Assembly: GCA_932294295.1 (NCBI GenBank)
Contig: OW028580.1
Span: 36,339,336-36,403,335, forward strand
Length of the DNA: 64,000 nt
Direction: 5' to 3'
Source: Alitta virens
Lineage: Eukaryota > Annelida > Polychaeta > Phyllodocida > Nereididae
A program made the translations under genes and the position numbers. The notes below the pieces were generated by a model that saw only the letters and a list, made by a program, of their open reading frames with translations, searched no databases and was not told the DNA's origin. Below, one piece after another: positions 1,739 through 33,057 of this stretch. Within the stretch, counting starts at the first letter, position 1; every line of letters starts with the position of its first letter.

Positions 1739-1774
1739 GTCAGACCATGGAGTCACTTCACTCCATGGTCAGAC
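1739..1774. mobile_element. Mini-palindrome A (22 bp) with 7-bp TSD GTCAGAC
   Basis: CATGGAGTCACT joined to TCACTCCATG at 1746-1767, flanked on both sides by GTCAGAC (1739-1745 and 1768-1774). Member of the CATGGAGTC family. Confidence 0.85.
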
Positions 1775-2139
1775 TGGACCTCAGTCAACGTGGATGTTTC
1801 TACCAAAATAAACACCTCTAGCTCTCAACCTATTCACCTGGGCTTGATTCTATTCTGTTCTCCATACATTACACTAGTTAGGCTGTTACTTCATGAGCAT
1901 GAGTATGACTCCATTATTACTTATGATATGACTTCAAAGTGAGTGAACATGATTTTATCTGCTAATAACTGTATTTATCATAAACCTGACTCAATCAAAT
2001 TATTAATTAGTTAAGGCTATATTATTTTACAATAAAAGATTAACAATACTCATTTATTTTAATTGCTAATCAACATTAAATATGTGTATTGTTCATAAGA
2101 ATCTTGACAACCATAGAATTCAGTTCATGAATATTCAAA

Positions 2140-2405
2140 TTACTTTTCAATGACCTTTCCATGACCATTCACAGAATTTCCCTGACTTTCTTTCGATAAA
2201 CTCTGCACAACAAAGTCAACGATTGCAAATTATAACCGCCTCCACACACCCCTTCCGGCCGTCCTCACCACCCTTTTTTATTCCAGACAATGCTGACTTT
2301 TCCCATGACCTTTTTTCAAAATTTTCTAAAATTCCATGACTTTTTCCTGACAAATAATTTTTCCAAGATTTCCCAGGATTTTCCATGACCGTGGGAACCC
2401 TGTAT
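2140..2405 (-). repeat. Dispersed repeat ending GGGTTCCCACGGTCATGG
   Basis: Read on the minus strand it starts CAGGGTTCCCACGGTCATGG and continues with multiple GTCATGGAA / CCTGGAAA-like units. From memory, very similar interspersed sequence occurs in many aquatic animal genomes; boundaries here are approximate. Confidence 0.5.
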
Positions 2406-3176
2406 ATAATGCCCTAATATATTGGTCAACAATAACCTAAAATAATACGTATATAATGTACCAAATTTGCAAGATTATGGTCTCAATATTCAGTAACCAT
2501 GGTAACGCAAAACCAATTTAAAATTTTTTTAAGTTCTAAACTGTAGCAGCAAAATAGGGATTAAAATAGGATTAGCAGACAAGACCGGAAGTGATGTCAT
2601 GTTCGGACTCAATTGTCCAATCAAAATTTCAATTGGAATTCTTCGTAATTATTACTGGGATAATAATGTTCACATGAAATAATAAACCTCACCATTTCAT
2701 TATATACAACCAGAACACCCCCCTTGGTAATCAACTAAACTGGCTTTTATTATACTGAGCCTAGAGGCTGTCTTAGCAAATTCACTCATAATCATAACAA
2801 TAGTTAATGCTAAACTAAAGCAAAACAATCCAGATGTCTTATTACTAAGGTGATCTCAATACAAGGGTCTTCAGTATTCAGCAAGGTGAACTTCGAGCCA
2901 AAATAGCACCATAATTTATACCATGTGTTGGGAGTAGTAATTCACAGCAGGGTCAAGGCCAAGGTTAAAGCAGAAGTTGATCCAAAAAGTAGTTCAATTC
3001 CTTGAACTGGCAAACTTGTTTAACATGTGCACTTGAAAAGGTCATTTATGTTAAAAATAGTGCATCCCTCCAGGGAAAATTTCACTACTATGAACATGAT
3101 TAAGGAACCATGTCCATCAACAATAACTAAAAAAACTTTAGTTTTCAAATAAAACAAAATTTTTACAAAGTAATTT

Positions 3177-3192
3177 AAAGGGGAACTATACT
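3177..3192 (+). repeat. Solitary end of a TTAA-type element
   Basis: TTTAAAGGGGAACTA matches the end of the 52884-54169 element; no matching right end was found nearby, so this may be a fragment. Confidence 0.4.
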
Positions 3193-3393
3193 ATTTAGAG
3201 CACCCAATATTAACACCACCTTGAATTTAAGGCCTGTTTCAACCAGTCCCAAAACTGAACATTATAACATTTCGTAATTCTAGAATTAAGGCAGGCTTTG
3301 CATTGAGGGCACTGCAATGGCTAAAAAGGATGGTATAACTTATGATGTTTCATTGTACATATAAAAACATACATTGCTTTTCTTTATAAATCA

Positions 3394-3568
3394 GGGTGGG
3401 GGCCCAGCTCTGTGGTAGTGACCCGGGCTCCCAACAGCTGGGTCCCGGGTTCAATTCCCTATCAAGCCTAAGTTGGATGGCTGTTTCATCCTTCAGCTCA
3501 TTGCCATGGTCCCTGCCTGTCCTAATTAGCCCGTCAGGTGCAGAAATAGCCCTAATCCACCCACTCTG
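3394..3568 (+). mobile_element. tRNA-derived SINE family A, copy 1
   Basis: Head with degenerate A box (GCTCTGTGGTAGTG) and B box (GGGTTCAATTCCC), then the family body AAGTTGGATGGCTGTTTCAT and GTGCAGAAATA. Flanked by 9-bp repeats TATAAATCA (3385-3393, 3569-3577). Confidence 0.85.
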
Positions 3569-4276
3569 TATAAATCATATAAACTAAGTATTTAAACTTT
3601 TGTTCGACTGATCTCTGACTTGATATTGCTGAGCAGTAATATCTGAAGTCTCTATCCAGACTATTGCAGAAATGTGTTTACTACCCTGACTGGTCTAAGT
3701 ATATACCAGGGTTGAACTGGTTTTTGGCTAAGAGGCAGAAAACCTCATGCAAAAAAAGTACAAAAAAGTATACAAAATATACATAGGACTGTGTTACACT
3801 GTAACTGGTCTAGACACTGGCATAACAAATTGGGAAATAAAAATCAGAGCCGAACACCTCTGTTTTTCATATAAAAGGTTAAACACGATATCAATGTTCA
3901 TGAAACCATATGAAAATAAGTGTGTTGGTGCTTGGAGGAAGAAAATAGTAATATCTGACAGATTATCATATTTATGTCAATATTTGACAGCTTATGACAA
4001 ATTATATGTCAATGTCTTGTGTTTTAGTTGTGGTACTGAACTTATACTATGCTATATCCCAGGTGCAATTTCTATCTATCAATCCTACTAAAATGTCACT
4101 TTCTCAAAATTCAAATACACTGTGTCGAATGTATCCATTTGGCACAATCCATTGACACATTCAGGTGATCCAATCAATTGACACAAACGCGTCAAATAAC
4201 GAACTTAAGTGACACAATTTAAGGTTGATTGAACTCGATTCACAACCATTTACCAATACCTAACCATTTCTCATAA

Positions 4277-4433
4277 GGAGGTAGCTCAGTGGTAGCACGC
4301 TGGGCTTCCAACCACCGGGTTCAATTCCCGGTCGAGCCTAAGTTGGATGGCTGTTTCATCCATCACATCATTGCCTGTTCTAATCAATTAGGTGCAGAAA
4401 TACAGGAGGTAAAGCCTAAATAAACCCATCCAC
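4277..4433 (+). mobile_element. tRNA-derived SINE family A, copy 2
   Basis: Best preserved head: A box TAGCTCAGTGGTAG, anticodon loop CTTCCAA (tRNA-Gly-TCC-like), B box GGTTCAATTCC. Perfect 13-bp target-site duplication CCATTTCTCATAA at 4264-4276 and 4434-4446. Confidence 0.92.
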
Positions 4434-5263
4434 CCATTTCTCATAAAAAAAATTCCATCTTTACACTTACTTAAACGAACCATTTGACACCATCTAAACT
4501 AAAAATCGTTCATTATAACTGCCATTAACTGGGTTTTGTTATACCTGGACAATGACCTTGGCTCCAAATGTAGTGTTTATTATTTCCCCTCATTGCAGTG
4601 ATTTAGATGTCATATTCTCGAGGTTCTGTATCTATTAACATGATTAACCTTTACATCGAACAATCTCCATAATGAAATCAACAATGAGCATGATAAGACA
4701 ATGCTGAATTTCAAGGCAAAGATCCTTGTGGTGTTTGTTTCAGGCAGAAATCTAAAGTTAAATAAGCAGAAGTCACTTGTTTGTTTGGAGCACCACAGCT
4801 TATTATCATGATTACACAGCTACTGTAACTGAAGGAGCATAACCCATTTCTGTCACTGTCACCAAAACAAAACCTTGTGACATTTTCAGTTTGAAATTAC
4901 ATTCAAGTATACCCATTGTTTCAAATGTTTATATTTATATACATAAAAAGAGGTATTTAAATGATAACGATATTTTTGTGGCCAATAAAACTATTCCTGG
5001 TAGTAGAGTTAATACGGAAGTGATAAACCGATCAAATGATGATATACAAGTCGATGTCATACAACAATGTACAAATTCAGTCAATCGCTAATTTTTCAAA
5101 AACGATCACGAAACAGCACATGCCACCTGGTGTATTTGAAATTAGTTACAACAGTTTTCTAAACCAAACTTGATGAATGACCTACCACATGTTATTCATT
5201 TGATAAATTCATATAAAAAAGTAATTTTAGTGATAATTTTTTGTCTTAATGTTAGCAACTTAC

Positions 5264-6184
5264 CTATCAAGACACTGTCGGCGATAGCCTCGAAGAAACT
5301 GATCTTTTTAATCCATCTTGTCTCCATAGGCTCATCATCCAGATTGAGTCTGTCGCACATCACCTCCAATCGATTCACAGAGTTTGGCAACACGGGACCT
5401 GACTCGAACTCTAGCACAATTTTGTTGACGGTGCCTATGGAGATTTGGTCTATAGCTTTCAATTTAAGTTCTGGAAGTGGAGGGTTGTACAACCGCCCTG
5501 CATGCTTCTTGAGGTAGCCTAGGGATACGGTATTAATGACGTGATTTGCATAGAACTTTTTCCCGTTGACGCACTCGACACACACAGGGTACATACTTCC
5601 ATTTAACGTGCTGCTGTTATCCCCGCACCAAGTGATTTGCGACACGGGCTGCTCGAGCATGATGTTGGATTCTGGGATGCCTTGAGCGAGGGCGTCTACG
5701 ACCGCATGGAATCCGGGAGGAATGACGTAATGGACACCGGGGAGTTCTTCGAAACTTCCCTCCTCGCTGAGCGCCACCTCGCGCATATTGTGGCAACCGG
5801 CTATAATGGATTCGTTTAGCATCCTCTGGTGGAAGATAATGCGACGCATGTGATGGTCTTGTGTCGGAATAAGATGTAATTTCTCCTCAAACTCTCTTTC
5901 TAAGAAGGCACCTACGGAGTCGTTTTCTAACGGCGTTGGCATCTGTTGGGTATAGAAGTCTTCAACTTGGTTCATCAACATTCCAAATGTCCAGTCCACC
6001 TCTTCGACTAATTTTGCATGGATGGGGTCGCCGAGTTCCGTCAAGAACATGTGCTTCTGACCGAACTTCCTCCCCGCAAACTTTGGGTTTAGCCATTTTT
6101 TCTGGATGCATAATTTGAAGATGGGGTTCCTTTCGATGCCGTGAATCCAGTTCGCTCCGAGTTCTGCTTTCGTGTTTGCCGTTT
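5264..6184 (-). CDS. Polyamine oxidase exon 2 (substrate domain)
   Basis: 921 nt, entering with 2 nt of a split Glu codon and leaving in phase 1. The acceptor is CTTTGCAG at 6185-6192 (minus-strand reading) and the donor is GTAAGT. The reading starts ETANTKAELGANWIHG and runs open to AIADSVLI. It is clearly richer in G+C than its flanks. Shorter plus-strand ORFs over it are shadows. Confidence 0.92.
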
Positions 6185-9100
6185 CTGCAAAGACAAAATT
6201 AAGAAATTGATTAAAAATCTACTTTCAAAGCATCCATTGGATATAATGTTTGTAATACTTCACTAAAAGCAACATATTATTATAAGACTTTTAGTCTGTT
6301 TTTAGATAAATATGAGGTAGTACATTTATTTCGATTACTTATAATAATAGTATCTAATAGCAGTAACAAATGGCAAATACATATAATGAAACATGGACTT
6401 AATTTTGTAATTGAGAAGTCACTAAATTTATAAAAGACACAAAAAAGCACATTTTCAACACCACACATTGAATTCTAGTCTTACTATATAAAATTTACTA
6501 AATTTCGCCGACACAGCTCTATTTCAGAAACAGCTGCAACTAAGTTCATATGAACTAAACTGTGTACTGTATAACATAACAAAATTAATGGACGTCATTG
6601 CAAAAAATTACTTCCTGCATTTTTTTTTTCAGTCAAGATATGAATTCGTAAACAGTTTTTTTAAAAAACATCACCAGAAAAATTCAATACCAATTTAACA
6701 GCTTGACCTAAAGAAAAATCTTATTCAAACACATCCCACTCTAAGTTCAATAATCTCAAGTGTAAAACATTCTTCAAATTGGCAACATGTATTCCTGTTT
6801 TGTTTTTTCAATCAATATTTATATTAATGACCAAGGTCACATGTTGAAAATAGGCAAGGATGGGTCTTAATACTAATATTTGCCGAGAAAAACAGAGTGT
6901 TAAATTTAATAATCGAACTTGTGAATTTGATATATTCATGCAAATGATATTGACATTTTTTATCATTTTAATTGATTTGGAAATGTTGTTTTTGACACTT
7001 TATAATGTTTTTAACCCAGACACACAAACAACCACAGTATCACAGCTCTAATAACTGAACCACTCGGGTCAAAACTAAGGCAATTTTATTAACTCCAAGA
7101 GAAACCATTGAATGTTAATCATATTGTTTATAGTGACGTTTAAAACTTTTAAAAGAGCATGAGAGCATGAGAAAGGGAGACCAAAATGTGATTTTAGTCA
7201 TTTTACACAGAAGACTGGGTCCACTTAATACATTAATGTGTTACAAGAGCTTTGGCTGAGCATAAAGAGCATGAAACTTCAGGTTTTTCGACTTATGAGT
7301 CAATGAACTTTATGCCAACACGGGAATATAAATCACACCCTTTGTGGGTGGAAAACTGGGACTTATCAGCGCATACATATTAACATAACATAATTCATAT
7401 TGCAAATCATGATTACTGAGTACACTCATAGTCTCACACATGAGCCTGATGAGAGACTACACCATAGTCCATGTTCACAAGTACATGTCAACGAAAATTA
7501 CATATTTTACACGTTAATTATAGCAGATAGACTACCAGTATGCCTATATGTCAATACTGTTTGACAGAACTTAAGCTAATTACAGTGGATAGACCATGTA
7601 TTGACACACACTGTAGATACATACTTACCTATCAATCTTACTAATATACTGGTAGGTAAGCCGATTGGATACAATAATGAACACTACCCAAATACTTAAT
7701 AATACTGTACCAAGAATACTGATGGAGTACAATGAGGCACACGATAACTCAGTCAGAAATATGGACTCCTTAGAGAATAGAATCTTAACATTCCTTCAGA
7801 TAACTTGACTGTGAAGTGTATTTATCATCACAGATTATATTATCATGTGGCAGGTTCAAAATGAATGTCCAAATGGTGGGGTCATTTGAGTTGGTATCAC
7901 CTTTCAATAGTTGCGAAATTTCATAAGGTAAAGTTTTCAACTGATATACGTTGTGTCAACTTTTCAAGATGTGGTGATTGTCTTCAAACATTCGCCACGG
8001 TCCTCTTGGCGAAATTTAGGTGTGGCTAAATTAAATGCTTGTGTGGCGAAAACTTGTCAAACTTAGTGGCGAAAATGCCTCTCAAGTGTACACAAGAGAA
8101 ACTGTTGCTCCTATAAGCCAAGCACTCTGATTGGTCCTCAGAAATCTACTTTCAAAGCATCCTTTGGATATAATGTTTGTAATACTTAACTAAAAGCAAC
8201 ATATTATTATAAGACTTTTAGTCTGTTTTTAGATAAATATGAGGTAGTACAATTATTTCGATTACTTACAATAATAATAACTAATAGCAGTAATAAATGG
8301 CAAATACATATAATGAAACATGGCCTTAATTTTTTCTGATTGGTCCTCAGTATGGTTTTTGTACCATTTAACATCACAATACATTAAGTCGAGTATGTTT
8401 TTGACTGGGAATTAGAAACTTATGAAAGCTGCTTCAAATAATCGTGGCTAAAATGTCTCTGTTATGGCTAAAAAAAAAATTGGACTGCTTTAACCACAGT
8501 GGCTAAGGCTGGAATTAATTTAGAGGAAACCTAGTCTTGCTACATCTAGTTACTCATTATTCTCCAAAACGTTTCGTTAAAATACCTGAAAATATACTGC
8601 AAGAAAATAACAAAACTCAAATTTAACACAATACAAATCCCTTAGACGATTTTGTCTATCAAAAATTACCCTCTGATCATGGAGTCACTAGAGACTCCAT
8701 GCTCTGATGAATAGAACATCTCAGAATAATGACTGTGAAACTGCCCTAAAAATAGCACTAGTGTATAAGTGATGCTCAAAGTTTGTGCATAGACAGCCAG
8801 TGGCCCCAGTTACAGCTATTATCGTTTAAGCAGCAACACTTCTATCGTTCAAAATGTTTACTGTCCATTGCGATTGAAAGTTTGACAAGACACAGACCAG
8901 AGTTGTAAAATCATTAACCAACTTTCATTTCACCCCACTAGGAAAACACTTACCCTCAATATAATGTTTTGGAATTGAGCTATTTAGGTCGTTGTAAACA
9001 TGAAGGAGAATATACATACCCAAAATCCATTGAATGATAAAATTGACAGAATGATTTCACACATTTATTATTAACTCACCGATAATTTACAAATTTACAA

Positions 9101-9794
9101 AGGAGGTATGTTTCTTTAAATGTTAGTTTTGTTTGATATATTGGCACTAGGTGTGTAGAATAAACGGTATTAAACTGTCTATTCAGAGTTGTTTTGGATA
9201 TATTGGCAAAAGTATGTAGAATAAACTGTTTATTCAGAGTTGTTTTCATAATTGCATGAATTATTTTGTATTTCTTGGATTTATTATTAACATATGATTA
9301 ACTCACCGATAATTTACAAAGGAGGTATGTTTCTTTAAATTATACTATGGAGACCTACCAAACCTAGACCATACTGTGGTGTGGGGTAAACAAGTCGGTT
9401 AATAGCTTTATAACCCCATTGGTGCCTATCAAACTTTTGATCTGAAAGTTTGTGAAACTCTTTCAAAGTTCCAAGTGTTGCTGCTTAAACGCACCCTGAC
9501 AAATCAAAGCCTTGACAACACGGCACCCTCAAACAACTATACTAGGTCAAGTGATGCATATTCATGACCACCAAGATCTGGCCCCACCTCCTGACAAGCC
9601 AGCTAACACATGTTGATGTTATAAACAATGACTGCACTGTCAAAGGGTTGTGGTCAACTGGCTAGATTGAGTTTGTGGTCAACTCTAATGACTTTTTTCT
9701 GGCTAGATTTTGTCATTATTTAAGCTCTATCTACCTACCTATCTGCCTATCTATCTATCTATATATATATCTATCTATCTATCTACCTATCTGC

Positions 9795-9833
<39 letters not shown>

Positions 9834-9859
9834 CCTATCTATCTATCTATCTATCTATC

Positions 9860-9890
<31 letters not shown>

Positions 9891-12800
9891 CAATCAATCA
9901 ATCAAAATCAATCAATCAATCAATCAATAAACTATCTTTATAGCAATCAATCAGTCAATCAATCAATCAGGGTTTTTAGCTATCTATCTGTATCTAATCA
10001 ATCAATCAATCAGGCTAGCTAGCTAGCTAGTGTTATAACTGACTCTTGGCCTATATTGGGATTATGACTTAGTCATTATTTTTTGAAGATATTGAGAACA
10101 TTGGCCATCCATGGAGTGTTCTGGTGTGGCTTCATGATATTTAACATTTAAACCTGTTATTTTGAAAATTCCTTTTACCCAAACATATGGCCTCATTGGT
10201 CAGGCTGGCTAAGACATCTGGGGCACCCTGCATATATTACTGCGTAGCAAAATCCTCCAAACTCTACGCTGGAGATCTGATTGGCTGGTCATTAGAACTG
10301 GGTTGGATAAATTATAGTGGCCTGAGTGGGGCTTGTGGGCAGTGTAGCTGCATGGGAGTATGCTTAAACGAAAATAGCTGTAATGCACCCTGACAAGTAA
10401 AAGCTGCATGGGAGTATGCAGTTACTGTTTAATGCTACTACTGTAGGTGTGGTCATTGACCCCGTGGATGTCCATAAAAACCAAATGGTCTACGAGTCAA
10501 TGACCACCGTCCAGTCACTGGCATCTTGTGGAAATCATGAATGAAGTAAGAATTTTGTACAACCTCAGTCATGTAGTACTTTGGAAATTTCATTAAAAGG
10601 TCTATTACACAGCTACATATCAACATTAAAAAAATGTATTAGCCATTTATATAATAGGGGTTACATTTCAAAATATAAGTATTTTAGTGTATATAATACA
10701 CTAATCTTACAATGTGTATTATTGTTTGGAATCATACTGCTCACAAGAACTGCCTTGGGCCAATATAATGAGATGATATGATTATGAGGAGGTCAATGGA
10801 TAGGATTGAAGTGTATACCATTTTCTAAATACGTTCACTCTATGGGTGGGGTATTTTCCTTGTCTCAGCACAAGGTAATACTAATGCTTTATAACAGAAT
10901 GCACAAGGAGAACTTCCACGTACCAGGCTGAGGATTGACCTGAGAACTCTGAAGCAGGAAACTGCACACTATAACCACTAGGGAACTTAACTGCTGTATA
11001 CAAAATATCATTAATTCAGACAAATGCATACATGTACTATGTTACAATTCATTAACATATTGTAAACATGTCCTCCCACATGTACTCATGAACACACATG
11101 CTTTGTATGCACCAAAAATACTAAGCAACAATGTAACAATTCACTAAAGCTTGCCAAACTGCGCAAGGTCATACCCTCAGTGACCTTGGCAGTGGCAAAA
11201 ATGTCCTTCAAAAAAGACCCTTCGGTGCATTAATAACACTTGCATGTCATACCTTAGGGCATTACGAGCTACATTGGTGCATGTAATTCGTTTTTTGGAT
11301 GACATGTCAGTTCATTTGGTGCAAACTGATTATGACACAAATTCTGTAACAAAAAGGTCACTACACCAGGTCATATCATGCAATTGTGACGTCACAATGC
11401 ATCCGAACGTCCTCATGCTGCTATGGTTACATAATTGGTAATTGGTTAGTACTGTATGACCTGCCAGAAAAAGACCAAAAAAAAATGATATTAAAAAATC
11501 TGCAGCCAGCCAGCCACCTGTACAGCCCGGTCACCTCCCCCAGACAAATGTTCATTGTTTTACTTAAACGACCAGATAATATAAATAAATTTCCTTGAGT
11601 GAGTGACTGCCTAAAACAGGTGATGGCACGTGCATTTTACTGAAGATATCACAGGTTATAGGCATGGTTACCATATTTGGGGCATGCCATATTTTCAGAC
11701 AGGTTATATAACAATGAGCATGAGTAACTAACTTCAAACTAAAATTTCACAAAAACCAGACAAAGGCTGACAGGCTGTCATGGGTTTTTTGATAAGATGT
11801 TGCAATGAATCATATTTATCTGATTTGCTACCTGCGATATCGCCAACAAAATATGTCCAATAAACTCCGCCCCACATTGATAATGCGGAACAAATTGTTT
11901 CTTTGTTCCAAAAATCAATAAAGTTTCATGCAAAGAAATGCATGATACTATTATAGGCCTAAGACAAAATTAATTCCAGCAAAATATTACAAGTATATAA
12001 ACTGCCTTACATAGGGAATGATTTTTGCAAAAGTATAGGCAAACAGACATAAATAAGTTGCAAAACTAGTTTGTTTTGAATATTTTGTCCGGAAGAGCGC
12101 ATTTGCCATCAAACATTTCACCTGTAAACATGGTTATTTTATCCCATGTTGAAATACAGGCTCTTTGTTCAAGTTTCTGGAACTCCCGATGCAAAACTCA
12201 TGATCGTCTGCTTTTCACAATTTGTTTCAGACCTTGTCTTTGAATTCACTTTTATGCTCTGATTATATTACCCCAAAGGTACACGTGCTTTATATTTGCA
12301 GATACCCCCTTTTCGTTTTGAGAACCCAACCTTAGAAACGACTGCAAGGTCATTCACCCTAGCAACCAAAACATTGAGGCCTGTCAATGAAACGGATCCA
12401 GGTCAAGTGGGCGGAGCTTGCGCCATATAAGGAATACAACGTTCCAAATATCCCGACGGAGCCCCAGACTCAGACAACCAGACAGGACACAACCCTTAAG
12501 AACCCCCAAAAGCATTTACGCAACAGCGTGACGTCACGGGCGCAAAATAGAGCGTCGTGTTGTGCTGGTGACCCGTTTGTTGTGCTATTCTGTGCTATTT
12601 TGCTACTGGGGGCAACGCCTACTACGTTACAAATGAACACTACTCACAGTTTACGCTAAATACACAAGGCTCAGCCTTCTGCAATCATGAAGTTACATGT
12701 ATTGCCAGTTTCTTTCAACTGTCTCTATTTCAAAAGTACAATTTACAACGAAATCGCACTTATTTGATTGTATTATCATCTAGGCCATTTTCAAATCCAT

Positions 12801-15800
12801 GCCCCACTTAATTTGAACAAAAGGTCCTGTTACATTTGCACTGGCATCATCAGCTGATCTCAGTATGTCACAGAAATAAACTGGAATCACATGACAGCAA
12901 GTGCTACTTTCAATAACATCATGAATTACAATTTAATTTTTTCAAAGATCCATAGTCACTGTTCTTCAAAATCTTAAAATTCAGCGTGGCTTGTTTTTTT
13001 TCTCCAGTCAAACACTGCAGTCAAGTACTGCACTGTTACTGCAGTTTAGAGTGACAGTATGGGGTCGGGGGGGGGGGGGGGGGGGAGTCTCCAGGAAAAA
13101 TCATTACAAACATTCTTAGAATGACACTTGCGAATCCACCAATCTGGACTGGAATTTCGGTGGAGGATTGAGGGAAGTTTTTTTTTAGCTGTGGAACCAG
13201 TTTCCCAAAAGGGTCATAGCATAATTGCTCCACAACTCATGATCCAAATGCCATCATCATTTCCATCACCTAATTTGAGGTTATCTCAACAATATTATTC
13301 GAGTGTAAATAGTCATGAAGTAATCTGTGGCATTACAACATCAACCACAACTAACCCCAATGAGCTCTAAAATTTATCACAAATGTTTAATTCAAGAGCT
13401 GAATGACAGACTAACAACAGGGGGCCTGGATTCTTGGGCTGGATCATCGGATCCCTAAAAAAATATCCCTGGATCTCTCCCAGGGTTTTAGTAAGAAAAA
13501 AAAATATCTACAGTCAGTCACAGGCTGGTGAAAACACGTGCATTATATTGTAACAGGCACTTGCCGAACAAAGTATCTGTAGCACTGTATTATAAGGATT
13601 CTCCATTTTATGCTACGACCATTAATTTTATCATTGTTTTATGACACGCCGGCAAGTGCCTGTGATGCAATCGGTAAAGTTGAAAAAGAAAGAAAATAAA
13701 TAAAGAAAAAAGCAAAGAAAGAAAGGCAGATTAGATTAGAATAGATGGTAGTGGGTGGGTGGATTAGGGCTTTACATCCTGTATTTCTGCACCTGGTGGG
13801 CTAATTAGGACAGGCAGGGACCATGGCAATGAGCTGAAGGATAAAACAGCCATCCAACGTAGGCTCGTCCAGGAATCGAACCCGGGACCCAGATTAGATT
13901 ATGATAGCTAGATAGATAGGTTAGTCAGACAGACCTTTGAACAACATCTGGTAAATTTGTAGTGAAGCAATTTCGTAGCAGTTTTACACATCTATTTCTG
14001 TAAAGTAACAGGTTTTCCTACACCTACACAATAAATTACTATAGTTTTCTTTTCTCAATTTCTTCCCATATTTATATATAAATGGGGCGAACTCGCGCTC
14101 AATCACGTTACACTGTCTATTTTTAGCCCATCCTTGAGAAGAGTCCTGATCTAAATGTAGCCATGGCAACTGGCAAGGTCACCACACGCAGCCATGGTGC
14201 TAATCAGCTAATTATGATCTATTTGACACTAAATTAGGTTCTGTATATTATGTCTCACTAAGCTCATTCAAAAATAAAGTCTTTCAAAATGTTACTATGA
14301 TCATGCATACATTGCACCTGGGTCAAATTTCATTCCACAAAACAGTACCTAGATCTGTATTATGGACAAATATGACATAACTTAAGTTATCAAATTACTT
14401 CTGGTATAAATGATACAAAGCACTCAATGAACGTACTTCTCTATTTCCTAATTGCAGCCAGATCACGTAACTGAAATAGAGGGTGATACGGGCCGGGTGA
14501 TCTGCGCCATGTATGCATTACCCAGCTTGCCATTGAGAAATTACATATTGCCATTTTGGCATAATCTTAAAAGCCATTGACATAACCTTTCCAAGCATTG
14601 AAAAATAACAAAACCTTGATGCTGCAAATTTGGCTTGTATGGTGAAAATCCTTGACAAAACATAATTGCTCTGTTTATGTCCATTACTGTCAATTTCACC
14701 AATGGCATGGCCTTATAAGTTTCATGTTATGAATATTCATTAATCTGTGACACAATAGTTCATTTGATCTGTGAAACAATAATTCATCGATCATTTTATA
14801 TAATAATCAATTATTGATAGATTCCTAAACAGGGTTGAATATATTGTCTTCTAATTCCATAGTAATAGAAAGTCAATAGCAAACCTTTCGTTTGATAAAT
14901 TTTTTGCTACAAAGCACACAAAATGCACACTTTCAGAAGACTGTCACTGATATCAAAATAATAGCGCAGACAGCACTATGACGTTAGGTCATTTCTTCTA
15001 TTAGTGACGTCACATTCCTCATTTAGATGACGTCATTAAATATTGGGCAAAGCACACATTTCTATATTCTGGCTTATATAACACACAGGTTATACGAATT
15101 ATAGCATGGACATTATTACAATAGAATGTACATGTTTTATGTACTGCACAGGGAAGCATACGTGCACAGGTCTAGTGTCCTCACATGAACCTGGGCACTA
15201 CCATTCACTCGTGGGGGGTGCAGGGTCACATTTCTTATATAAAAGGGCCTAGAAATCCTTTTTTTATAATATATAACCTTATATTTTACCCCAAAGAAAA
15301 CTGAAATTAGGTTAAAATTTGCAAGCACAACAATTCACTATATAACACCTACAGTAAAATAAATCTGCTGAAGCAGTTTGTAATACTTCTAATATTTCAT
15401 ACAAGTATGTACCCCCTTGTAAATAATGGTACAACCCCATCTCACGGTCAAAACGCTGACCTTGCATCTCGACAGGAGATCTTAAACCACGTGTGTTGAC
15501 TGCGTTTACAGCTATTTTCGTTTAAGCAGCAACACTTGGAACTTTGAAAGAGTTTCACAAACTTTCAGATCAAAAGTTTGATAGGCACCAATGGGGTTAT
15601 AAAGCTATTAACCGACTTGTTTACCCCACACCACAGTATGGTCTAGGTTTGGTAGGTCTCCATAGTATAATTTAAAGAAACATACCTCCTTTGTAAATTA
15701 TCGGTGAGTTAATCATATGTTAATAATAAATCCAAGAAATACAAAATAATTCATGCAATTATGAAAACAACTCTGAATAAACAGTTTATTCTACATACTT

Positions 15801-16799
15801 TTGCCAATATATCCAAAACAACTCTGAATAGACAGTTTAATACCGTTTATTCTACACACCTAGTGCCAATATATCAAACAAAACTAACATTTAAAGAAAC
15901 ATACCTCCTTTGTAAATTTGTAAATTATCGGTGAGTTAATAATAAATGTGTGAAATCATTCTGTCAATTTTATCATTCAATGGATTTTGGGTATGTATAT
16001 TCTCCTTCATGTTTACAACGACCTAAATAGCTCAATTCCAAAACATTATATTGAGGGTAAGTGTTTTCCTAGTGGGGTGAAATGAAAGTTGGTTAATGAT
16101 TTTACAACTCTGGTCTGTGTCTTGTCAAACTTTCAATCGCAATGGACAGTAAACATTTTGAACGATAGAAGTGTTGCTGCTTAAACGATAATAGCTGTAT
16201 GTTCTAAGCATTGCTAAACACCAAAATGCCTGACAATATCCACTGCTAAGCTGTAAAACAATTCTAAGCTATTTACTAATCATCTGCTAATTGCACGTTT
16301 TATTTTCATTTCACTTCAGCTGGTCAAATTCACAGATAATTGAAAGTGTCACCTAGGGACACGGTTTTACACGAATTATTTTTCTCACTGCCAAATTCCT
16401 ACCAGAGTTAACTATAGCCATTGCATAGTATATATGTATACCTCCCCAGGACACCAGTGGCTACTCACTATCACCATGACCACATACATGAATGATTCCA
16501 TGTACATAAATCATGTCAAGTTACTGAGGTCAAATGTTAAGGACATGGAGTGTAAAAGATTCTAATAGCTACTTCACAAACCCATGGAGTCACTATATAG
16601 TACAGTGACTCCATGACAAACCTAACTTAAGTTTAAAACATATCATATGCAAATGAGAAGAGTTTATCTGTAGTGTTATCTTGATATTAGATAGATAGAT
16701 AGATAGATAGATAGATATGATAGTTGGATAGGTAGATCTATAGATAGATAGATCATAGGTAGATATAGATAGATAGATAGATAGATAAGAGAGGGAGAG

Positions 16800-16869
<70 letters not shown>

Positions 16870-19800: not shown

Positions 19801-22800
19801 TCTCTCTATATCGATAATATGTCCATATATCCATGATATGTATCCCTATATCCATGATATGTATCCCTATATCCATGACATATATGTCTGTATATCCCTC
19901 ATACCTGTCAGTCTCAATATATTGAAATTCCACCACCTCATAATTTAGTCTATTTAATTCAATTCTTCACTAATGATGTTCTTTATTGAGAGGTTCTACT
20001 GCATGTATACCTGAGCAGTAAGCTATTGACTATTTTCAACAAAATTCTGTCAGTAATAGTATATTTTAAGCACAGCATGACAGCACAAAATTGTAATAAT
20101 TACTTACGTAATAGAAACTAAATATCAAAGGTTATTGTCTATAATCATGATAATATAGGACATATTTCATTAAAAAATTGCAATTTCCATACAACTTTTC
20201 ATAGCTTTAATTCATAACATACATGGACAGTCACACGTAATGTTATCAAATTGATTCACAAAACATGCATTGATAATCATATATTGCTTTCCATTTTGCA
20301 ATTTGCTTATATTTACTTCAATATATGCCCACGTAAATCTAATAATCTATGTTCAAGGTTTTTGGTGAATATAAGCTCACACATAACATCTGTCTCAGCG
20401 TTAAAGTACTTTGCCATATTTAGGTGTACAATTTTCATTTTTAATATATATATAATAGTAAATACATGCATCCATATGGCTCCCTTACATATCAATAATG
20501 TCGTAAACATTCACATTGTATAAGTCTAGTCACTGGTGGACTACAATATTATATTCATGTATCCTACTATTATAATGCCATGGCAACCATATTGCTCAAT
20601 ATAACTAAACTTTTAATGTGATATGAAGTTGAGCAAAAAATGCACTTAAGTGCATAACTGAACATAATACTCCTGTGGTAATCCAAGAAAACAAAAAAAA
20701 TTATATATATAAATCATGAATTAATGTTAACAAAAATCCATATCAAATGCTGTTATAATTCGCATATATATCTGTTGGAAGAAAGATTTAATAACTTGTT
20801 TATCACACAGAATATGACACCAGATATTTTTTGAAAATTAATGCTAAAAACTCGTATTTGTTGAACTGTCAGTGTGTCATGCTTGGAGGACGAGTGACAA
20901 GGTCACTAGGTCAGTGTAAAATGCTTGCAAACCTTTTCATTATAGTGTTTAAAGTTTTATATCACAATAAAATACAGCACAAGTATACTTACTGATACAT
21001 TAAGGCTTTTTGAGGGTCTCTTAATTATTAGCATGGTAAGGTTAATGATTAACAAAATGTGGACTGCAAGTTTCTTCTCATCATTATATTTGCCTATTGC
21101 AGATGGTCATATAATCTGAAGAAGTTTCAGACTAGTAGCACAGAGGCAATGCACTGAAATGCAATTACTGTGTTGCCCTGAAAGCTAAATAACTAAACAT
21201 CTTTAATACTTATTTATAATTCCCGATATTATTAATAATGAGCATGCCCATTGATTTTTCATGTCAATTCACATTAACAAACTTGTGATAATATTGTCAA
21301 AATAGAATGCCCTTTGTCTGATACCATCTGTTCTGAAAATTATCATATACAGCTGTATGGCATTTACATGGATACCATCAATCTGTCATGAGATCTCATA
21401 AACCATGGAGTCACTATACTGACTCCATGCATAAACTTAGTACCAATATATGATTATCCATTATATATTTTGATAATTTCAATCACCAACAAAGACTCGT
21501 AGACTGGTAAACCATTGAAAAACCTGACAAAAACTTTTCCAACACCCTTTATCAATAAATATGATAATATGCCGCATTCCACAGTGACGCCACACAATAA
21601 TGTTATGGGCGTTCTGCTCTGATTGTTGTGGTCACGCTCTGGTTACCACGTGACGCCATGACCAAACTAGGGTGTCACGTTCACAAGACATGATGGGAGT
21701 GGAATTCTCATTTAATTTAAATACAATACAGAAGTAATCGAACCCAAAATTACGACTATTCCTTCAGCCCACTTATAACGAAAGTCCAGCAATAACTTAT
21801 TTATAAGAAGGTCATTGTCCGGAACACATTTCATGAATATATTTGCATATATCCATTAAATCAACTCACATAATTATATTGAAACCGGTTATAACGAAGA
21901 TTTTTGACAGTCCCAAAATCGTTCGTGATTCATAATTGGCTTGAAATGTGCTAAGTGGTTTTAATGTGCTAAGTAAGTGGTTTTAAAGTACTAAGTAATA
22001 AAGTGGTTTGAATGTAAATGGTTTGAATGTGTTAAGTGGTTTGAAATGTGCTCAGAAAGTGGTTTGAATGTTCTAAGTAAGTGGTTTGAATGAGCTAGGT
22101 AAGTAGTTTGAATGTGCTAAGTAAGTGGTTTGAATGTTCTCAGAAAGTGGTTTGAATGTGCTCAGCAAGTGGTTTGAATGTGCCAAGTAATTGGTTTGAA
22201 TGTGCTAAGTAATTGGGTTGAATGTGCTAAGTAAGTGGTTTGAATGTGCCAAGTAAGTGGTTTGAATGTGCTAAGTAAGTGGTTTGAATGTGCTAAGTAA
22301 GTGGTTTTAATCTACAAAGTAAGTGGTTTACTAACTGTTGAATGAAGAAAGCAGATAAAGTAATGTGTAATAACCAAGTCTACCATCTTATCCAGGCCAC
22401 TGTGTGCAGTGTTTCTCAATATCATTCATAGCCACTCCCATGGCCATGCATTGAGACCATTTGTCTGGGTCTAAAATAACCTAGGCGGAATTAAGACCAC
22501 CTCAGTATACTATATACCCTAAGTCTTAGTAAGATCACAGTCATTTCTAAGTGAGGTCTTAAGTGTGAGCTTCAACTGTACAAGAACGAAATATGTGGGT
22601 TTGGCAATATCATAATATCATACACCCACTCAATGTATTGATCATGGTCAAAAAATAAATAAAAAATCCCACGCCCATGCTGTTGCATTAGCCTAGACGC
22701 CCTGGACACATCACTGAAATATCATAATGAATTCACAATCCGAAAAAATACGGTAAATATTATGCACAATAAATATGCACTATCATCGTGGTCATAATAA

Positions 22801-23635
22801 AGTATCTATCTATCTATGCCACTATGCTGTGACAGATTGAATGACAGTCTTTCAGTACACATTTCTGATAAGATATATTTCATAACCACGAAATCACGAA
22901 ATATTACATATCCTTAACACCTAAAACAGGGTACAACTGCACTACTGTCCAGTCCTTAGGCCATAGGCTTATGGTATTCTATGTACCTGAGATCATTTCA
23001 AAATAATTACCTAATTTCTAACTATGTCTGAAGTATTGTAATGTATGGTACCTCATCAAAACTGGCAATTTCACACCATGAGTAAAAAGTTTTTATGAGT
23101 AGTTTTTCATTTAAACATTTTCAAATATATTCTGATATATATCTAGGTTTATAATAATTAATGAAGCTAATACATAAATTAGATAATTAATAGAGTCCAC
23201 ATGTTTTGTATTCGTACAATCAATGTGTTAACACTGATCCAGGTGATAAATCGGGTTTTTACCAAATCATACATAAAAACACAATCAAGGTGTTGCCATA
23301 GTAACCGAGAAACAACATAAGCCTTGCAAAAAAAGGACAAAGAAACTTTGGCTGGCCGCTGCGTCTGAACAATCGACCTTTTTAGTGAAAAGTTTTTACA
23401 CCATTAATGACCAATGTGTCCTTGCGCGGTTGAAAGTAGTTCGGTGCAGACCTTGGCTTTGAGGTTGAGCACCAATGATGGGAGTTAAATACTTAGTAAT
23501 TGAGATGTACTTACACCAAGTACTTATACTAAGTACATAAATTGCAACTTTAAATAGCAGCAACGATAGACAGATAGATAGATAGACAGATAGAAAGATA
23601 GATAGATAGATAGTTACTGACTTACTTACTGACTG

Positions 23636-23698
<63 letters not shown>

Positions 23699-26600
23699 GA
23701 CTGACTGACTGGCTGGCTGACTGACTGACTGACTTATATCAGACTGACTGACTAACCCACTGACTTTCTTGATTGATTGATAAGAAACAGTTCCATGATA
23801 ATTTATCTCACAAGTTCACAACAGCCCTCGTGAGCAGGTTCTTGACCCTATCATAGAGACCCAAATACCTCGTGAATACAACAATCACATAGTAAAGTTG
23901 TGTAACAAAGGGCCATCGGCATCGTTGAGTCGATGACACAGAATCAGGTGCATCCATCGATCCCAGACTCCCTGGCACTGTCCTGGCACTCTCCTGGCAG
24001 CGCACCTGTTGACCCAGACATTATAAATGACGTCATCAGAAATCGTTAATCGGGGGATTCCCCCTAATCAACATGATCGCTAAGGGTACGTAACAAACAG
24101 TTCTCAATACTCTGCTAAAATGGCAAAAAACATTCATACAGTCGATACTGCATGGCTATATGCCCACAAATGAATAATAATTGATTATGAGGATATTATG
24201 TATAAGCTATCAAATTGTATATAAAGTTATGAACTTGGACAAAATGAATACGAATCTACTTTTCACGTATGTAAATTACATTATTAGTCACTGTCTTCTG
24301 AATTCTGATAACAATGTAGTTCGATACCCCATATTATGACAAAATCGATCAGATTGACATAACAAATCTTACGTAATTGGTTTTGAAAGAACCAAATTAT
24401 TACTAATCTGAATCAGTGATCAATCATAAGTATGTTGTAAACAAAGGATGATTAACCCGTTTTAGATGTTTACAAACAATCATAACATAAACATAGACAG
24501 TATCTAATGACACAATGAGATGACCGAGATATTGGTAAACTGATTAACAAGTTAGGTCAATGCGCACTATTTTGTTCTCTTTGAAATTTAGATGAATTCT
24601 TTGTGACCAAATTAGAATGTGATAAACATGACCAAATTAAAGGAAGTGACAGTGCAAAAAATGCTACCTGCCTGACTGAACTTTATGTCCTTGCAAAATT
24701 TTTCATATTTTTTTCTAAAATGCGAATTTGGTGTATATATTTTCGCATACCGTTTTTTACGCTTCTGAGAACGTCAACCATGACGTAGAACTATTCACAT
24801 TTACTTGAAAACAAATTTTTTAAAAACATTTCAGAGAAAATGCTTCATAAAGGATTGATATTAGTTCCTTTGTATTTCACAAAAAATCCTCTCATACTAG
24901 AACATGGATATAAAAACGTGTTTTTTGCCCAAATATGTTACTTATAAGTAATATAGAACATCGTCTCCACACAAAATATTGCTCCTTTCACTGATCTCAT
25001 ACACAATGTTTGCTACACCTGCCCATATTTGTTTGCACACGTCTATTTTTAGCCCGGCTGTTGCCAAAGAAAGATTGCCATTAAGGCTAATTACATGATC
25101 CGTTTTTAGCTCTCATGCCAATAACCTAGTTGTGATGACTTGCTTCAATTAAACGTCAATGTTAACATGATTAAGCTACAGTGGTCCTAATAAGGAGGTT
25201 GCCTAATAAGGAGGTTGCCTTATTAGGAGGTTGCCTTATTAGGGAGGGCATTTAATTTGAGTGGGCAGAAATGCTGTGGCATTATGGTGAGGTGGTTTTA
25301 ACTTAGGTGTTGTCTTAATTGAGCTTTTTACAGAGGTCCATTTTAGAGAGTCGGTCTTAAAACTTTAATAAAAGGTGACTTTATAATGAGGTGGTTTTAA
25401 AGCGAGGTTCCCTTTACTTATGTCCATGCCTTTACATATGATATGTATTCGTGTAATTATATAATAATGCGAAATTTGCCCATAAATATAATAGGATAGA
25501 TATTTGCATCATAATTTCTATATTACATGCATGACATTGTATCAAGGACGTTTTATGGCCAATGACATTTATCACATTTCTAAAGTTTTTTTCAAGTTAC
25601 TAGACATTTAATAGAGCCATTGTCCAACTAATATGTTGCTGTTCGACATTTAAATTTGACAGCTACAACCTACATTCATGATGGTTGGCGGATAATGAAG
25701 AACACTGGTGACCCTTTCACAGTAAATGAAATGCTATTTTCCTGTAAATGCTGCTGAGTGTGGTGACGTCAATAACTGTTCTGAGTTCATTCAATGTATC
25801 AACATTCAAACAACATAATATTATATATCATATATGACTTTCACTGGAACTGTGCAAAACTATTGTCATTCTGTCATCACGACACCACATGGAAGCATCA
25901 TAATACAGTGTATATCTGATCATAATGAAAATATCAAATGCATTCAATTCATGGAACAACTGTTTAATTATCATCTGTATAATATAAAGGGCATCCACAC
26001 TTTCTGATTCATCAAGTTTCACATGAAAACATCATATCGTATTTAATATAATCATGGAGTCATCATCTCATACTATAATGTATAGTGACTCCATGATATA
26101 ATTATGAAATATTATCAACGTTTATAAATCATGTTTACAACCATGAGGCCATGATGGATCCACAATATATGATTCATAAAATAAACTACATGACATCAGC
26201 TGCTGTATACATAACAAGTTAAACAAATGACAATGTTCAAATACTGTGATGCGCATCTATGACCAAAGGTCAATGACCTCTCACCAAGACCATCATTCAA
26301 ACCATGGAGTCTCTGGTGACTCCATGTTCAAACAGCAGCTTATTTAATACTTATGGACCATAATATCAATCAAATTTCATCCAGATATTTATATAAATAC
26401 CAATAATTCTGAGGCTTTTGCTGGCCTAGTTATACACAAAGCCCTAAAACACATGACTGGCGTCATTGTGTCATAGCACGTGGTTCTCACGTGGGGGTGA
26501 TTCAGTCAAGTCACGTGGATCGAATGCTGCAAACTTTCTGGTCCAAGAAAATCAATATAGCGTATGAGGTGGTTGCAAGATATTGCGATCTTACCCAGAA

Positions 26601-29600
26601 AATACTTGGTCAGCAAAATGACTCATATATATACCAACTCATTCTGTGACACATTACCATGTAATTAGGTCAAGGCTAAAGTAATGATTCATTCACAGAT
26701 CCTCTCATAACCGTGGCCAATACCTGATGCTTAGTTCTATCACAGACAACATATGTTGTCTGTGGTTCTATATACCTTCACGGAGCTAAATTGGCACACA
26801 TGGTTACAATAAAAAGAAAACAAAATGATATATAAAAGATCCAAGAATATACAGTACATAGTACGTGCCAGTCATTTTTATACTCTGTTGTTGACAAGTA
26901 TTATTGTGTGCTGTGGCCTTGGAAGAACATACATTTTTTTCAAGCTGTGACTTATTTGTACAATCATGGAGTCACTATATGTATAGAGACTCCATGGTAC
27001 AATTGAACTTGGTAGGACAACAGTACCTAGGGTGGAGGCTTTGATTGTTAGGTGGTCGTACTAGTGAGGTATAATTGATTTATACAAGTTGTGGGACTGT
27101 ATTAAGAGGTGGTCTTATTGGCGAGGTGGCCATTTATAAACTTTTTGTTTTTTAGGAAAACAAGTGATGTTTCATACTGAAATTTTTATAATACAAATCT
27201 CAAATTACACAGAGATGCCCCAAGTTAAACAACTGATAATCATTTTAATTTTAACCAATTTCAACCAAACAGTCTACAATATCTTTTCTTGAAGACTTAT
27301 TTCTACTGTAATCCTACAGGTTCAGTTTACAAGATCTTTACAATCGGAATTCCCGACAGGTTGACATCTCATTACCTAACCCCGAATAGCCAATCAACGG
27401 GCATAATAACCCAACACGACAAAGCTCTTAGTGCATCTATTATCGCTCAGGACCACATGTACACAGCAGTTTTACGCAGGATATTATCGTTCGACCACAA
27501 AATGCTGGGAAATACCTTCTTTGTTTACTTTGTTCTACTTCGTGACCCCGTGACGTCAGGACGTCTTTGTTGAGCGTCATGCAAATTTTGACGTCCTGTT
27601 ACGCACTGTCACAGGGAGGGGTTAAAATTACTCATAAATCAGCTAAAACGAAACTAAGTGCTGCCCTGTTTTAAAGACACTGATGACCATAAACTTTCTT
27701 TTTTCTCCTCTTCCTTTTTTTTACCCAGTCTTGATAAGCATTAGTGGAAGTAGTTCAAAAAGTCTTCATTATCAAAACAGATCTTCTCAATATGTTATCA
27801 ATATGTCCTATGACGTAAACAATGCCTCATAGAACAACAATATTTTCATAGAACAACAATATTTTCATAGAACAACAATATGGACCAATAAGTATAATGT
27901 CAGCGAGTTTAATGTCAGCTTGACATAAAGGGATTGCTGTACCCATAGAACTTGTCCTATTTTGTGTGTCAACCATCGAGTGATATATCATACATACGCA
28001 ATAGACAAACCCAAAATCTACAATGATCTAGGTGATAAACAAAAGGAGTAAATAAGAAGTAAATAACAAATAACATCTTAACTGCACCCAGGGAACCTGT
28101 TGGGAGTGCTCAACTGGTTCTCCCATTATACCCTCCCCCCCCCCCCCTTTTTTTTCTTTTGGCTCTAATTACATGACCTTGAAATATAAGAATTTTGTTC
28201 ATCAACAAAATACACTTAAATCATTTCAACAGGACTTAACATAGACACTTAGTAGAAACTTTTAACAGGGAAAAAAATAGAAACTTTTATATACAAGGAA
28301 CTAAAACAGAAAATAATCACCAAAAAAGTTAAATTCTCAAATGTCCTGTATGTGTGTTCAACTGAACCATCCTTAATTTGAACCTTATCAAACTTATCTT
28401 ATCCAGGATATGATTACTCATTTCCTTGTGTTTTTGCAAATCAAACCTTTTTTCCTCAAAAGCATAGAAATGTAGCCTTTTGCTTCGTGTACAATACCAG
28501 GATTTTGGTAAAAGTTAACCACTGAAATTTAAGCTCATTTCAGAAAAACTTGCTCCAAACGTTCAAGTTTCAACTGACCTATTCTACAGGGTACAGCCAG
28601 GGGGGGGGGGGGGAGGGGTCCAGCCATTTATCTATTCATAGATCACGTTTAATTTAATTAATTCATGTTTTAGGGCAACAATGTATTATAAAATATATAA
28701 TATGACATAAATGCATGTATTAAGATACATCTTATTATCTTTTCGTCTTTTCATTTATAGTTTACAAAGATGTGTAAAATTTGGGGCATATTTTCTCTTT
28801 TACACCAAACCAGCTTAGCAGCATATATAACAAAATCCGGCTGTACCAATTTTCTTTTCTGCAGCCCAAAAAAAAGTTTGATTCTAATTCATCATAATGC
28901 TTTAAAACAAGAACTATTACGATTAATCAATTACAGAGATCTTATTTGAAGTTGCATGATCATCTCTGAGACAAAGGGGGTTAAATAATTAACCCCAGGA
29001 ATGGCAGAATCCTCAAGGCCTAGGTGATTACGTAACCTCCCATCAGCAATCTCCAAGGATACACGAAACCTTGGCGACGGAATCTCAGAGCAGCAGCAGC
29101 AGCAGCTATAAGCAATCTCGATCTTTTCAATACATCATAAAAAGTCAAATGAATTCATGGATATTGCTCAAAGTTTACCATTGTTTATAGCTTGCAATAT
29201 TGATAACTGTTTCATTATTTGCATTATATATAATTAGTATATATATATATTTATGTTATATGATCTGGCAGCTATATAATTTTAACCATTTAATAATGCA
29301 GTTTTCCTAGTAAGGTTAGTATCATATCAATGACATCGATAAATATATTGTAAACATTGTAACTCCCAATATATATCATGGGCAATGTACTAATACTATA
29401 ACACTAAATGTCAATTAATGTGATAAACAACTGAATATATTATAATTTATTAACATTGTATAGAGTATGCTAGTTCACTATTTTTCTAGGATTCTTAGTA
29501 ATTCCCATTTATGAATTCATTACACGTACAATTTTCAATGAGAGAGGATATTTTACAGCAAATTGCACATGTACAGATGTTTGTACCATCACAGCATGCG

Positions 29601-32386: not shown

Positions 32387-33057
32387 TTCTGCCTGTTCCC
32401 TCTCTTGCTCCTCAAATCTAATTTTGGCAGATGATGTTGGAGGTTTCCCTCGAATTCTCTACTTCACTGTAAGTTAAAATTTGTAAAGGCTAGTTCACAC
32501 GTGGACCAACCAAACTCCTTTCAAAGCTGGGTGGTGTTTGGAAACCCGAGATAAAGCGAAAATTCGACCTCGCTCACTGAATAGAAGCTCTTGACTGAGT
32601 ATTTGCAGCCCGCCTTCTCTGACCTCATTTGGGTCACTGCAAGGTCGGTGGGCGGGGCTCAGCAGAACTTTGACCTGACCTATTTACATCACGCTTTGGC
32701 CTATTTACATTTCATTACACATTCTGCACGTGCTTTTTGTCGTCTGCTAGGAAAAGCTTAGGATCTCAAAAATGGATCATTTAAATATGTTTATTTAGGT
32801 AACGTAACGTTTAATTTGCATGTATCTGTTATTAGCAAATAACTGAACACAATTCAGTACATATTTGTTTTTTAGTGATCACTGATCAAATTCAACAAAG
32901 TCTTCAAAGAGTTTAATTATCATAACTTTTGTTAGTTTTGAGGATTTGCAGTGTTTCTAGAGGGGGGGGGGGGGGGGACTAACTCTCAGAGCCAAAATAG
33001 TAAATTCTTATGTCATGAGGGGAAAATATCACAATTAAGTCAAATTAATGTTGTTGT

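Follow-up and report, generated by a model that had tools for sequence, protein, structure and literature searches.

The 64,000-nt stretch of the Alitta virens genome analyzed here (the window; C8:36339336-36403335 in a genome of 671 Mb and 23 contigs) carries eight short palindromes, each lying between two perfect copies of a 7-bp sequence of its own. We interpret these palindromes, with a probability of about 95%, as healed double-strand breaks left by departed cut-and-paste transposons of the P superfamily. At each locus, a 7-bp target specific to it is present twice, and between its copies lie the remnants of two inverted ends, with outer arms that are constant and junctions that vary, so that the loci display both target copies, both end remnants and the variable junctions by which excision scars are recognized. 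Scars of this kind fall below the reporting size of most repeat finders, and they reveal from sequence alone both the cutting by an unstudied transposase and the repair of germline breaks.

Palindromes and target repeats in the window

The eight loci, none with an assigned strand, are the following (window coordinates, target repeats included):

Scar 1, 1739..1774, unstranded: 22-bp remnant at 1746-1767 within GTCAGAC repeats
Scar 2, 8671..8708, unstranded: 24-bp remnant at 8678-8701 within CTCTGAT repeats
Scar 3, 16576..16622, unstranded: 33-bp remnant at 16583-16615 within ACAAACC repeats
Scar 4, 21397..21436, unstranded: 26-bp remnant at 21404-21429 within CATAAAC repeats
Scar 5, 26046..26102, unstranded: 43-bp remnant at 26053-26095 within ATATAAT repeats
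Scar 6, 26296..26333, unstranded: 24-bp remnant at 26303-26326 within TTCAAAC repeats
Scar 7, 26734..26771, unstranded: perfect 24-bp palindrome CACAGACAACATATGTTGTCTGTG at 26741-26764 within GTTCTAT repeats (absent from the first-pass annotation)
Scar 8, 26958..27003, unstranded: 32-bp remnant at 26965-26996 within GTACAAT repeats

Seven of these loci share CATGGAGT...ACTCCATG ends (the CATGGAG family), at lengths of 22, 24, 33, 26, 43, 24, and 32 bp, and all seven have an exact 7-bp repeat that in no case extends to 8 bp. The first-pass annotation had reported these seven palindromes, starting at 1746, 8678, 16583, 21404, 26053, 26303, and 26965, with perfect 7-bp repeats, all of which was reproduced. 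Scar 7 differs from them in its arms (CACAGACAAC) and represents a second arm family. Scar 5 is longer than two 17-nt arms, and we read its middle as filler containing the arm 6-mer ACTATA.

When the 82 CATGG and 106 CCATG sites of the window were paired at any distance and identical 7-bp flanks were demanded, the same seven loci alone were recovered; with CATG as the only arm, three more pairs appeared, 17.7 to 39.4 kb apart, which we take as chance. A scan that made no assumption about the arm sequence, and that called for an exact 7-bp repeat, inversion of 8 or more of the 10 terminal bases, and a length of up to 100, gave eight matches; 20 Markov shuffles each gave none. The same scan remained at chance level for 5- and 6-bp repeats (2 versus 2.1 and 1 versus 0.65 in shuffles) and was elevated for 4-bp repeats (19 versus 5.3, eight of the 19 being microsatellites). 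A ninth 7-bp match (16728-16761) was discarded since it sits inside a TAGA microsatellite. The single 8-bp match and one of two 10-bp matches represent an AT microsatellite, and the other 10-bp match a longer palindrome. A search of the window for decayed members (up to 3 of 10 mismatches in the arms, up to 2 in the repeat) found the seven again and one poor match, versus 0 to 5 in shuffles. One-ended scars, sought by the arm start alone, yielded ten more CATG matches (shuffle mean 3.2, range 1-8) and 15 CACA matches (mean 3.95, range 0-10), an excess that consists at least partly of satellites. No self-match within the window spans any scar, i.e., it holds no empty paralogue. At 58445-58466, GTTGAAC TATGGCGCTGTTTAGCTCCATA ATTGAAC may represent an old scar from a related family; shuffles contain one to four such matches.

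Genome-wide loci and the reach of the arms

The pattern CATGGAGT...ACTCCATG with a gap of at most 30 occurs at 1,579 loci in the genome, versus two for the reversed pattern used as control. The first-pass annotation had expected many thousands, which is too high for this pattern, and its density of seven per 27 kb would extrapolate to about 174,000 in 671 Mb. The 49 loci that head the list, all from one stretch of contig C1, were fetched. The 7-bp repeat is exact in 32 of them, matches at six positions in 11 (at least 6/7 in 43 of 49), at five in three, and at four or fewer in the last three; an 8-bp repeat was found in none of the 49. The first-pass annotation had named genome-wide copies lacking the repeat as a finding that would undo its claim, and on this sample the claim withstood the check. 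When flanks were swapped among the first 40 loci, left and right agreed in 2 of 1,560 pairings.

Palindromes with the same arms also exist in unrelated DNA, as one would expect if the loci were chance palindromes or hairpins of some other origin. Yet flanking bases agreed at only 0 to 3 of 7 positions in 19 stretches from viral contigs, 14 of them distinct, that carry CATGGAGTC...GACTCCATG, at 3 of 7 in a viral stretch with the second arms, and at 6, 2, and 3 of 7 in three bacterial stretches, the value of 6 being explained by a palindrome that itself extends outward; a 7/7 repeat was found in none of these 23 control stretches. Together with the reversed-pattern control and the empty shuffles of the window, this makes a chance origin practically negligible.

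The 49 loci measure 17 to 39 bp (at most 34 bp in 46) and contain 33 distinct interiors. The most frequent one, a 24-mer, is the junction of scar 2 and occurs at 12 of the 49 when both orientations are counted; scar 6 is the reverse complement of scar 2 except for one base, and its junction is found identically at two. The second arm family, CACAGACAAC...GTTGTCTGTG, has 17 loci in the genome versus none for the reversed control, and 11 of them carry the window's own 24-mer (26741-26764); among ten that were fetched, the repeat is 7/7 in eight, 6/7 in one, and 5/7 in one.

Such recurring interiors, in both orientations, could be taken to support one suggestion of the first-pass annotation, namely that these are the smallest inverted-repeat mobile units. 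On this reading, a P-type transposase acting in trans would move the 22-43 bp palindromes. Copies of miniature inverted-repeat transposable elements (MITEs) have a common interior and usually measure 100 bp or more, and 33 interiors in 49 loci do not support a unit of that kind. Recurrent junctions are also expected of scars, as the most frequent join in flies accounts for 14 of 44 (see below), and the internal binding sites that P transposase needs, as described in PMC7776569, do not fit into 24 bp. The arms moreover fit a 17-nt cut, and a 3.9-kb element described below has its first bases in common with such palindromes. We consider mobility of the palindromes themselves very unlikely. The other suggestion of the first-pass annotation, scars of larger transposons, is by contrast strongly supported by the varied interiors, by the 17-nt arms, and by this element with its own palindromes.

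P transposase is described as cleaving at the 3' border of the element and 17 bp inside it on the other strand (PMC7776569). The 17-mer CATGGAGTCACTATACA, i.e., the arm at this length, has 215 copies in the genome (102 and 113 on the two strands), and among the 100 places listed of these 215 we counted by hand 14 closely facing pairs, seven of exactly 34 bp and the rest of 35 to 53 bp. In the 35 copies that were examined, the 17-mer is followed within 75 bp by the 7-bp target repeat at 7/7 in 21 and at 6/7 in four, and the six bases after it comprise 24 different hexamers. Three of the 35 are 19-bp scars with 17 nt from one end and about 2 from the other, and none of the 35 leads into a shared element end. 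Two scars, of 50 bp (L104) and 34 bp (L094), contain filler that repeats parts of the arms, resembling the templated filler of fly P junctions. At the sequence level, the arms extend to 17 nt and no further, consistent with a cut 17 nt inside the end. A 4,420-bp stretch between facing 17-mers on C3 was rejected as an element, as one of its ends is a scar and the other continues into unrelated DNA.

P-type transposases, presumed departed elements and the local cluster

GT...AC is the published target motif for Galileo, which has 7-bp repeats, and for P (PMC2775673, PMC4168063, PMC3573991). The eight loci of the window score 20 of 32 for this motif (reached by 1 of 200,000 random draws) and the seven CATGGAG loci 17 of 28 (6 of 200,000 draws), their repeats having been known before the scoring; for 25 other loci of the genome, for which the motif was fixed beforehand, the score is 65 of 100, reached by none of 20,000 draws (highest 45). 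The loci combine a palindromic GT...AC target with a 7-bp target repeat (8/8 loci in the window and 32/49 exact elsewhere), repeats of 7 or 8 bp being characteristic of the P superfamily.

Excision of hAT elements leaves hairpin-derived changes in the flanks and is not known to leave a long arm, and Dada elements require multicopy RNA genes, into which they insert. In the window, Rfam gives no RNA-gene match at gathering score, which speaks against the hint at Dada in the first-pass annotation, while the GT...AC target and the 17-nt arms indicate P. Scars of another transposon kind, e.g., hAT, Dada, or Mutator, are in our view highly improbable, even if some hAT families in Repbase are annotated with 7-bp repeats (PMC4455052).

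The hint at the P group held up: the genome is rich in P-type transposases, and one element has both 7-bp repeats and palindromes bearing its ends. We found at least 150 scored matches to PF21788 (the P transposase GTP-binding domain) from 374 candidates. Many of the matches lie in open frames of 816 or 818 aa. The 14 control genomes gave no match, a result that is informative only insofar as these include animals. Eleven transposase loci were fetched, and ends were located for three of them (L110, L111, and L139) and doubtfully for a fourth. L139 is 3,910 bp long, is flanked by the 7-bp repeat ATACAGT, and has CACAGAC ends (CACAGACTAGCCCATACAGACA) that, over their first 30 bases, match in inverted orientation at 29. 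Its 575-aa frame scores above cut-off for four Pfam families of P transposase, including RNase H, GTP-binding, and HTH domains. On these sequence tests it classifies as a P-superfamily element. Ten palindromes carry its arms, nine with an exact 7-bp repeat; they retain 11-16 nt of the element end and never more, though the inverted ends reach 30, and five of the ten are one identical 30-mer joined at TA. The first seven bases of L139, CACAGAC, are also those of scar 7.

L110 (4.0 kb, on C7) and L111 (3.9 kb, on C2) have 8-bp repeats and CACTGACCT ends, and their transposase frames are open over 816 and 818 aa. With many near-identical copies as judged by score, they would represent recently active 8-bp P-superfamily families alongside the 7-bp ones. 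The fourth locus (L113, C1:2909700-2915300) encodes a 745-aa P-type transposase within what is possibly a 3.1-kb element with the repeat ATTCATT and the ends CATGTGATTA / CACATGATTA, a doubtful candidate for a 7-bp, CATG-ended element. CATGGAG ends were found on none of the 11 loci, and the window contains no P-type transposase among its 40 frames of at least 95 aa, all scanned with Pfam.

Based on this anatomy and on the work in flies, the following course of events can be proposed. An element would have entered sites resembling GT...AC, with a stagger of 7 bp, and transposase would later have cut its 3' ends at the border and the opposite strand about 17 nt inside, leaving chromosome ends with 3' tails that held at most 17 nt of element end. 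Since the tails are inverted repeats of each other, short self-complementary stretches (TA, CATATG) would let them pair; alternatively, the tails might undergo blunt joining (34 bp), trimming, or extension by copied filler. Host end joining would then have sealed them, and the remnants would be inert, the elements having moved elsewhere or been lost.

Several observations weigh against this interpretation. No intact CATGGAG-ended element was found, and therefore the membership of this family in the P superfamily, which we infer, rests on likeness. Ten of the 35 examined 17-mers lack a repeat of at least 6/7; five of them run into unrelated and mutually different DNA, and the other five resemble, by eye, scars that are mutated or compound. 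When the window loci were parsed, the arms were limited to 17 and the consensus was drawn from those loci themselves. Among the 49 fetched loci, three exceed 34 bp (36, 36, and 39 bp; the 43-bp locus of the window likewise requires filler), six have a repeat of 5/7 or less, and the 24-bp class (22/49) exceeds what simple TATA pairing predicts. Lastly, one palindrome with L139 arms (L146) is without a repeat (1/7), and three of the five identical 30-mers (L147-L149) sit in the same target, probably as copies of a single event.

It is conceivable, if rather doubtful, that excision of the CATGGAG family is complete or nearly so, making it a ghost transposon of the P superfamily known from about 1,600 scars alone. 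If so, its insertion (7 bp) and its cut (17 nt) would still be legible, together with its ends and the end-joining habits of its host, in arms, repeats, and junctions. Programmed removal in body cells was rated low, as the one-mismatch repeats (11/49) point to scars of differing ages. In any case, some 1,600 repair events of natural origin would be available here for a single arm family. Since the genome also contains a P-superfamily element with intact ends, accompanied by its own scar-like palindromes, the 17-nt cut known from flies becomes testable in a distant animal. Most of this history can go unseen when past transposition is counted from the copies that survive.

The scars are strongly clustered. 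At the mean density of one CATGGAGT locus per 425 kb, 0.15 are expected per window versus the seven seen, and the 264 kb around the window hold ten scars (second arm family included), all between 1.7 and 66 kb, with none in the 100 kb before the window or in the remaining 97 kb after 66 kb. Two of the ten lie beyond the window end, at window coordinates 65120 and 66039 (CATGGAGTCACCAGTCTCTGGTGACTCCATG within CTCAGAA repeats and CATGGAGACTCTTGTCTCCATG within ATTTCAT repeats). Four of the eight scars of the window, from two arm families, fall within 958 bp (26046-27003), and four scars in 1 kb of the window were obtained in 99 of 100,000 random placements; these cluster tests are post hoc, and the window was possibly chosen for its cluster. 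Because P elements are described as preferring nearby targets and hot regions (PMC7776569), the window scars can fairly be read as a trail of local hops, without this being proof, and the cluster at 26046-27003 may be an insertion hot spot or such a trail.

Among other features of the window, a 681-bp inverted pair (8811-9491 and 15519-16199) is 100% identical, its second copy having inverted ends at TA, and is probably a very recent non-autonomous element of Tc1/mariner type. An amine-oxidase gene lies at 5199-6218 (Paralvinella 55%, Ridgeia 54%, other relatives up to 91%). Two exons are found on the minus strand, one of an amine oxidase (32150-32458) and one of a family 3 glycosyl hydrolase (45319-45606; both Pfam, above cut-off), and reverse-transcriptase remnants at 37545-38426 (Pfam RVT_1, below cut-off). 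Tandem arrays of a 22-23-bp unit with ACTTTCG/CGAAAGT occupy 62413-62611 and 63531-63596.

Comparison with known systems

The palindromes resemble MITEs in their inverted ends, target repeats, high copy number, and lack of coding capacity, but differ from them in interiors that are mostly private junctions. Our literature search, made mostly among openly accessible journals, found no report of comparable scars in an annelid. Zebrafish Pdre2 and THAP9 likewise represent P-type transposons beyond insects with short inverted ends, but are described with 8-bp repeats and 13-bp inverted ends (PMC10983969, PMC7776569). Galileo, a member of the P superfamily in Drosophila, shares the 7-bp repeats and the GT...AC consensus, but is known from long elements whose inverted ends are also long, and scars are not described in those accounts (PMC2775673, PMC4168063, PMC3573991).

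A close parallel is found in the P element itself. Repaired fly P excision sites are reported to consist of target, CATG...CATG, and target (Chan et al., 2010; PMC2895639). We counted 66 isolates in Table 1 of that paper (which states 68) and kept the 44 with both targets whole; the 22 others were dropped for partial target loss, and equivalent scars would escape detection here too. The kept junctions measure 7 to 44 bp (median 30), with 36 within 22-43 bp and 30 at 34 bp or less, and their most frequent joins are AT (14/44) and TA (5/44). The CATGGAG arm is like the P end at 10 of 17 positions (equalled in 1,696 of 200,000 shuffles), and at 6 of 13 once CATG is left out, which is not beyond chance (41,998 of 200,000). 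Fly P repeats are 8 bp long versus 7 bp here, and the fly junctions come from mutant flies, whereas these are natural and many. In both cases, however, a target repeat encloses a CATG...CATG palindrome with at most 17 nt per end, with AT/TA and blunt joins, templated filler, and recurrent junctions (PMC2895639).

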